IMG/VR virus record: IMGVR_UViG_3300027686_000016 | Coordinates: 1 to 35,632 of that record | Direction: 5' to 3' (one strand) | Length of the DNA stretch: 35,632 nucleotides | Origin: a virus | Shown: positions 17,502-17,582 of the stretch, one piece after another | Layout: each line of letters starts with the position of its first letter | How positions within the stretch are numbered: position 1 is the stretch's first letter | Program-made: the position numbers and the translations under genes | The notes under the pieces: generated by a model | What the model was told of the DNA's origin: nothing | The model's input: only the letters and a program-made list of their open reading frames with translations | The model's database searches: none

Positions 17502-17582
17502 TTATCGGTTCATAATGTAACAAGTTACTTCAAAACCAAAACGCATCTCAGTCGCCTGAGGAGTTGTCCAAGTATTTTTCAT
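17502..17582 (-). CDS. pqqA: PqqA-like peptide, precursor of pyrroloquinoline quinone
   Basis: A 26-codon gene starting MKNTW and continuing into [16 protein letters not shown]. PqqA peptides have 22-29 residues with a conserved W near the start, a P, then GxEVTxYxxxR. The Glu of the E-V-T-x-Tyr motif is joined to the Tyr by PqqE, and the pair becomes PQQ, the cofactor of methanol and glucose dehydrogenases. Every one of these positions is present here (Trp5, Pro8, Glu18, Tyr22, final Arg26). AAAGGAATAACT gives a good ribosome-binding site. No pqqB-E is in the window, so the phage would supply only the substrate to the host pathway. Element 2 (17659-17747) is 77 nt upstream. Translation and use are inference. 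Confidence 0.85.
   Translation of the reverse strand: [26 protein letters not shown]

Follow-up and report, generated by a model that had tools for sequence, protein, structure and literature searches.

A virus record of 35,632 bases (IMGVR_UViG_3300027686_000016 of IMG/VR; the whole stretch of DNA that was analysed, hereafter the window) was found to carry pqqA, a 26-codon gene for the peptide precursor of PQQ, and we consider it likely, with a probability of roughly three in four, that phage pqqA is an auxiliary metabolic gene supplying this consumable precursor to a methylotroph host in infection. Behind this reading stand the observed identity and conservation of the gene, the absence of other pqq genes, the presence of the PQQ pathway in the likely hosts and the linkage of pqqA to phage-encoded XoxF. 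In addition, we infer that pqqA is expressed in infection, that its product is processed by host enzymes, that the precursor is limiting and that the phage benefits from it.

The initial annotation had proposed a PqqA frame at positions 17502-17582, and this frame was confirmed, with the minus strand, left unstated before, as the coding one; read from 17582 to 17502 (81 bases), it consists of 26 codons and a stop with an ATG start, and nothing of interest is encoded on the plus strand across the same positions. An AAAGGA Shine-Dalgarno sequence (17589..17594, minus strand) lies 6 nt before the ATG, giving pqqA, a small separate ORF, a site of its own for starting translation. The peptide exceeded the curated cut-offs of both Pfam PF08042 (33.5 bits, E 2.9e-9; cut-off 21.1) and NCBIfam TIGR02107 (32.2 bits; cut-off 20), as expected of the PqqA that had been proposed. 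It was the single PqqA match of the window record in the PF08042 search, which gave no match in any of 14 control genomes, and a strict PqqA regular expression matched the window once, at this ORF, and matched none of 1000 Markov-shuffled sequences that kept its length and dinucleotide composition. From its translation, profile matches and homologues, the gene is thus predicted to encode a host-type PqqA precursor. The peptide resembles the PqqA family, especially that of Methylophilaceae, in length, W..P start, R-x-G-F-E-V-T-x-Y core and NR/NK end, but differs from it in coming from a phage gene unaccompanied by pqqBCDE, in having three extra N-terminal residues and in carrying Cys for Met before the Tyr. 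The pair expected to be cross-linked is Glu18 and Tyr22 (E18-V-T-C-Y22), with Cys21 between Thr and Tyr, where Met is usual; this EVTCY variant is a predicted substrate of PqqE, whose acceptance of it is not a given. A PHROGs match of the peptide to 'major tail protein' (E 0.15) was rejected as chance. Around pqqA, Rfam gave nothing over curated score, and thus no sign of a known riboswitch, and a promoter scan found sites no more numerous than in shuffles.

The window virus encodes SU10-type portal and capsid proteins and a terminase, and its pqqA has the reductase gene on one side and the HNH/terminase genes on the other, all on the minus strand. The upstream neighbour is a class II (B12-dependent type) ribonucleotide reductase (RNR; 17752..19614) with its nearest relatives in the OM43 phages MEP401/MEP402 (75-76% DNA identity). 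Between RNR and pqqA lies a weak terminator-like inverted repeat, the hairpin TAACCCTTTGATTTTAAAGGGTTA (17701..17724, minus strand), which scored as terminator-like on the plus strand only and which, in a presumed role on the minus strand, may separate the RNR and pqqA transcripts. Downstream, a domain match identified an HNH endonuclease (HNH_3; 17049..17369), followed by an 85-aa ORF overlapping the start of terL (16725..16982), by its position a possible small terminase, and by the large terminase gene terL itself (15431..16804). A 41-nt direct repeat, 80% identical and ending in GGTACGGCATCA, occurs just past the RNR gene, upstream of pqqA (17707-17747), and again 9 kb away (26831-26871), and is possibly a regulatory or terminator element.

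Using tblastn we found no pqqC, pqqD, pqqE or xoxF in the window, and no pqqB either, the sole pqqB query being a C-terminal fragment, in agreement with the initial annotation, which had seen none of pqqB, C, D or E. A pqqBCDE operon is thus lacking, and the phage is no PQQ producer by itself. The B12-type class II RNR, the IscU/IscA-type genes and the tmRNA that had also been read from the window were all present; that they would form one cofactor programme with pqqA, as the initial annotation suggested, is a conjecture. The IscU-type (NifU_N) and IscA-type (Fe-S_biosyn) Fe-S assembly genes are adjacent (20793-21486, minus strand); SufA and an Fe-S scaffold have been reported from MEP401-type viral genomes (PMC10580990). 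The tmRNA (29556-29902, minus strand) is of the one-piece type with the tag ANDSMFALAA, as against ANDDNYALAA in OM43 hosts; together with the two-piece tmRNA of Melnitz (PMC9004378), this makes two tmRNA types among OM43 phages. Near it, an ORF-poor stretch holds three copies of an 87-nt repeat that are 71-82% alike (30330-30416, 30790-30876 and 30880-30966).

Several lines of evidence point to the host. The window terL was closest to that of the OM43 phage Venkman (60.5%), the RNR was closest to MEP401/402, and a DNA pattern for EMRFGFEVT, searched in 84,980 bacterial and archaeal genomes, occurred among the matches listed almost only in Methylophilaceae-type records, some MAG contigs among which could be viral. 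The names among these listed matches were Methylophilaceae, Methylotenera, Methylophilus, Methylobacillus, OM43 and broader betaproteobacterial bins. Because of these three signals, the window virus is most likely a tailed phage of a methylotroph of the Methylophilales/OM43 type, as the initial annotation had guessed. The host pathway on which that annotation relied was also found: PqqE scored over the cut-off in six of seven likely-host genomes (the exception, at about 0.9 Mb, coming from a single cell), XoxF was present in seven of eight, and PqqA in 149 of 150 Methylophilaceae genomes, mostly in 2-12 copies. An excess of pqqA, with 3-12 copies as compared to single copies of the other pqq genes, has been described previously (PMC4109929). 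The OM43 strain LSUCC0665 carries a tandem pqqA pair, one peptide of which is identical to many phage PqqA.

A tblastn search of 50,697 phage records with the window peptide returned 12 matches: nine Methylophilales/Methylophilaceae phage records (P19250A, MEP301, Venkman, MEP401, MEP402 and four of Melnitz), the spring-water phage genome ctXG6705, and two Acinetobacter records. Hence PqqA was found in nine of nine methylophage records of this reference collection, in which the OM43 phages MEP431-434 and the partial HIM624-A of the NCBI taxonomy were not found, and in at least four genome backgrounds. No Pelagibacter phage gave a PqqA match, although the same collection has 28 matching records of such phages with related terminases. 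The two Acinetobacter records (CAKLQF020000010.1 and CAKLQH020000055.1, 'Acinetobacter phage MD-2021a') were rejected as pqqA phages, since they hold a normal bacterial pqqBCDE cluster; with polyphosphate kinase and pqqBCDE beside pqqA, they are apparently mislabelled bacterial chromosome. In the methylophages, pqqA is mostly unannotated or hidden under a 'hypothetical protein' call, which in Melnitz and ctXG6705 runs on the strand opposite to pqqA. The gene adjoins recombination genes in Venkman and MEP301, lies near a predicted recombinase in P19250A, adjoins tRNA-Leu and a baseplate gene in the myovirus Melnitz, heads a gene block in the Zobellviridae MEP401/402, and stands beside RNR/terminase in the clade of the window virus; it is from such genome context that independent acquisitions are argued, some 22 codons being too few for a PqqA tree.

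Among Melnitz-like contigs (L364-L370 compared to L006), a pqqA cassette was cleanly present or absent at one site; it comprised pqqA, a leader and a ribosome-binding site, and the next gene was 99-100% identical. Contigs without the cassette at that site may carry pqqA elsewhere. This clean presence or absence between near-identical contigs suggests that pqqA is dispensable in Melnitz-like phages, as would be expected of an accessory gene.

The viral metagenomes of IMG/VR were scanned with two non-overlapping degenerate DNA patterns requiring the core motif, EMRFGFEVT and LRxGFEVTMY. The former matched at least 120 viral stretches, and all 120 listed were clean PqqA ORFs of 23-25 aa, and the latter gave 88 matches with 87 clean PqqA ORFs, together adding at least 207 further clean PqqA ORFs of 23-26 aa. 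The LRxGFEVTMY matches include several other PqqA types, one of them on a 372-kb contig; these types (L530-L617, e.g., L578 on the 372-kb contig, L531 and L549) are perhaps from phages of other PQQ producers. AmoC (methane monooxygenase) was not found in pqqA-bearing viral contigs of the other types; as the control genomes were also blank, this does not prove its absence. PqqE did not exceed the cut-off in any of 34 whole viral records with pqqA (seven reference genomes and 27 long viral contigs), indicating that the phages supply the precursor alone, and the flanks of the EMRFGFEVT set held no pqqC, pqqD, pqqE, pqqB fragment or xoxF.

As these DNA patterns themselves require the core motif, conservation was measured on relatives collected with the large terminase of the window, and not pqqA, as query. 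Within the clade at 66% terminase identity or above, pqqA was found 0.3-5.2 kb upstream of terL in 26 of the 26 loci that were long enough, seven further loci that end short of the expected place being uncounted, and a more distant locus (47% terminase identity) also had pqqA upstream of terL. The frame proposed by the initial annotation is thus kept in related phages; Glu and Tyr were present in all terL-linked copies, both having been demanded by the search pattern. Other relatives at 60% terminase identity or below showed no pqqA in the flanks examined and may have it elsewhere in the genome; a loose tblastn search of terL relatives without a match gave chance matches only and no decayed copies. 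From these loci, pqqA appears to track the phage clade. Across 17 distinct coding sequences of the terminase-found set, pN/pS was about 0.19 (pS 0.64, pN 0.12), and the phage peptide is by this measure under purifying selection. An AAGGA-type ribosome-binding site is likewise kept before pqqA in the related phages.

A connection to methanol oxidation was found in a 72-kb contig (IMGVR_UViG_3300025120_009955), in which the locus L619 (contig positions 28000-47500) encodes a 624-aa XoxF methanol dehydrogenase (positions 5990-7864 within L619), directly followed by a molybdopterin oxidoreductase of 946 aa and formate-dehydrogenase type (7944-10784), and PqqA (13888-13959), the last equipped with a ribosome-binding site of its own and with a hairpin resembling a terminator. 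The XoxF is 88% identical to that of an OM43 host, and the contig carries T4-like genes (ATP-dependent DNA ligase, exonuclease, tail assembly chaperone, CsgG and a CHASE2/guanylate cyclase with relatives in Melnitz and HTVC008M); L619 is a possible phage methanol-oxidation module. A search of IMG/VR with this XoxF returned five viral contigs. In three of these, PqqA lies downstream of XoxF at a distance of 0.2-6 kb, and the remaining two break off within 0.7 kb after XoxF, too early to show whether PqqA follows. Since pqqA was not the query in this search, the result points independently to a PQQ-dependent methanol dehydrogenase as the enzyme that phage PqqA serves. The two further viral XoxF contigs with PqqA are L624 (10001-17300; from the 104-kb IMGVR_UViG_3300042891_000377) and L625 (1-3000). 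From XoxF to a cyclase gene, L624 encodes a phosphoesterase, a PstS-like and a porin-like protein, PqqA, an HNH-like ORF, a peroxiredoxin-like protein and a cytochrome c-like ORF, and in L625 PqqA, an HNH-like ORF and a peroxiredoxin-like ORF directly follow XoxF, the names other than XoxF and PqqA being putative and read from sequence. These three contigs share the PqqA type of the window and add the PQQ enzyme that it would serve; in contrast, the window virus has no XoxF, and the contigs resemble Melnitz/T4-like phages.

PqqE together with PqqD cross-links the Glu and Tyr of PqqA, and one PqqA peptide is consumed per PQQ formed, while PqqB, C, D and E turn over. In an infected cell, the phage would translate its own PqqA, Glu18 and Tyr22 of which would be cross-linked by host PqqD/PqqE, and a host protease followed by PqqB/PqqC would complete PQQ from the cross-linked peptide. 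The PQQ would then activate the periplasmic XoxF methanol dehydrogenase of the host, and in some phages also the phage XoxF, so that the flow of methanol-derived energy and carbon would be kept up in the infected cell. If host transcription is shut off, the PqqA peptide would be exhausted before anything else in the pathway and the PqqBCDE catalysts would persist; because one peptide is destroyed per PQQ and the catalysts outlast the shut-off, pqqA alone may be worth carrying. A parallel is the psbA gene of cyanophages, encoding the D1 protein, by which a phage replaces the fastest-consumed part of host energy metabolism. Both genes supply a component that wears out, but pqqA provides a peptide substrate and not a functioning protein, and the two share no homology. 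By its location in phages, its host-type sequence and the pathway in the inferred host family, pqqA would qualify as an auxiliary metabolic gene. We regard as evenly balanced the wider proposal that methylotroph phages have repeatedly and independently taken up pqqA as precursor only, in some cases with XoxF, and in one also with a formate-dehydrogenase-type enzyme, for phage-directed methanol oxidation, and that the strategy reaches beyond Methylophilaceae, the last because of the other PqqA types in viral contigs such as that of 372 kb.

Some observations count against precursor supply, namely the EVTCY variant, the presence or absence of pqqA in Melnitz-like phages and the isolation of Melnitz on OM43 hosts grown in PQQ-supplemented medium (PMC9004378). 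The several host pqqA copies fit a need for high dosage; they also allow a precursor that is not limiting, since the hosts are already so equipped. The phage gene could be a passenger, that is, a host copy gained by recombination and translated without benefit, and being small and multicopy in host genomes it would be easily captured; its polymorphic presence in Melnitz-like phages fits this as well. However, a pN/pS of 0.19 with synonymous sites near saturation, the kept ribosome-binding site, the recurrence across unrelated phage backgrounds, the location next to XoxF in phages found through XoxF, and the lack of any degenerate copies in the terL relatives searched make a passenger unlikely. 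In principle, a precursor that comes without the pathway genes could also titrate the chaperone PqqD, so that the phage peptide would tie up PqqE/PqqD and block host PQQ synthesis, but a decoy would be expected to lose or change Glu and Tyr, both of which are kept, the phage peptide can be identical to host PqqA, and phages bearing XoxF would work against themselves; we therefore consider such inhibition highly improbable.

There is equally little to recommend the idea that the PQQ serves other ends, for example export of PQQ that would shut a receptor importing it and so keep superinfecting phages out: the XoxF linkage points to methanol oxidation, and the idea would presume PqqU in OM43 hosts. 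To our knowledge, no phage receptor of OM43 hosts has been described. The idea draws on E. coli, in which phage IsaakIselin is blocked when PQQ shuts the PqqU transporter (PMC12124388). Finally, PqqA-type peptides are a RiPP class, and the PqqA family has been discussed in phage-host interaction in a metagenome study (PMC11118758), so the phage peptide might be modified by PqqE/PqqD to a product other than PQQ, such as a peptide that acts in signalling or as an antibiotic. Yet the phage core sequence is indistinguishable from that of host PqqA, and the loci compared show no further gene for maturation or export that recurs next to pqqA, leaving a non-PQQ product very improbable. Supply of the PQQ precursor is thus the reading that we prefer.

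Viral PqqA as such is already known: Coutinho and colleagues (2020) found it in the Lake Baikal virus population VP_266 and proposed a PQQ boost for the methanol dehydrogenase of methylotrophs (PMC7678222). VP_266 and the window virus are alike in carrying a viral pqqA with no PqqE reported in the same genome. VP_266 is a single uncultured freshwater population with a methanol dehydrogenase as well; in the window virus pqqA stands by itself, the SU10-type portal and capsid mark a different phage group, and carriers of the gene number in the hundreds. Four OM43 phage papers, PMC9004378 among them, are silent on pqqA in their main texts, and in the literature searched we found no account of its recurrence across isolates or of the precursor-only pattern, which is no proof of novelty. 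The recurrence, the precursor-only pattern and the linkage to phage XoxF look new.

If the proposed role is correct, a gene of 23-26 codons, skipped by most gene finders and annotators, would rank among the metabolic genes that methylotroph phages carry most regularly, and tiny ORFs are worth searching before a phage is called free of metabolic genes. With cultured phage-host pairs available for Venkman, Melnitz, MEP301, MEP401, MEP402 and P19250A, pqqA is a very small and testable auxiliary gene, through which viral infection may sustain methanol oxidation in abundant coastal bacteria.
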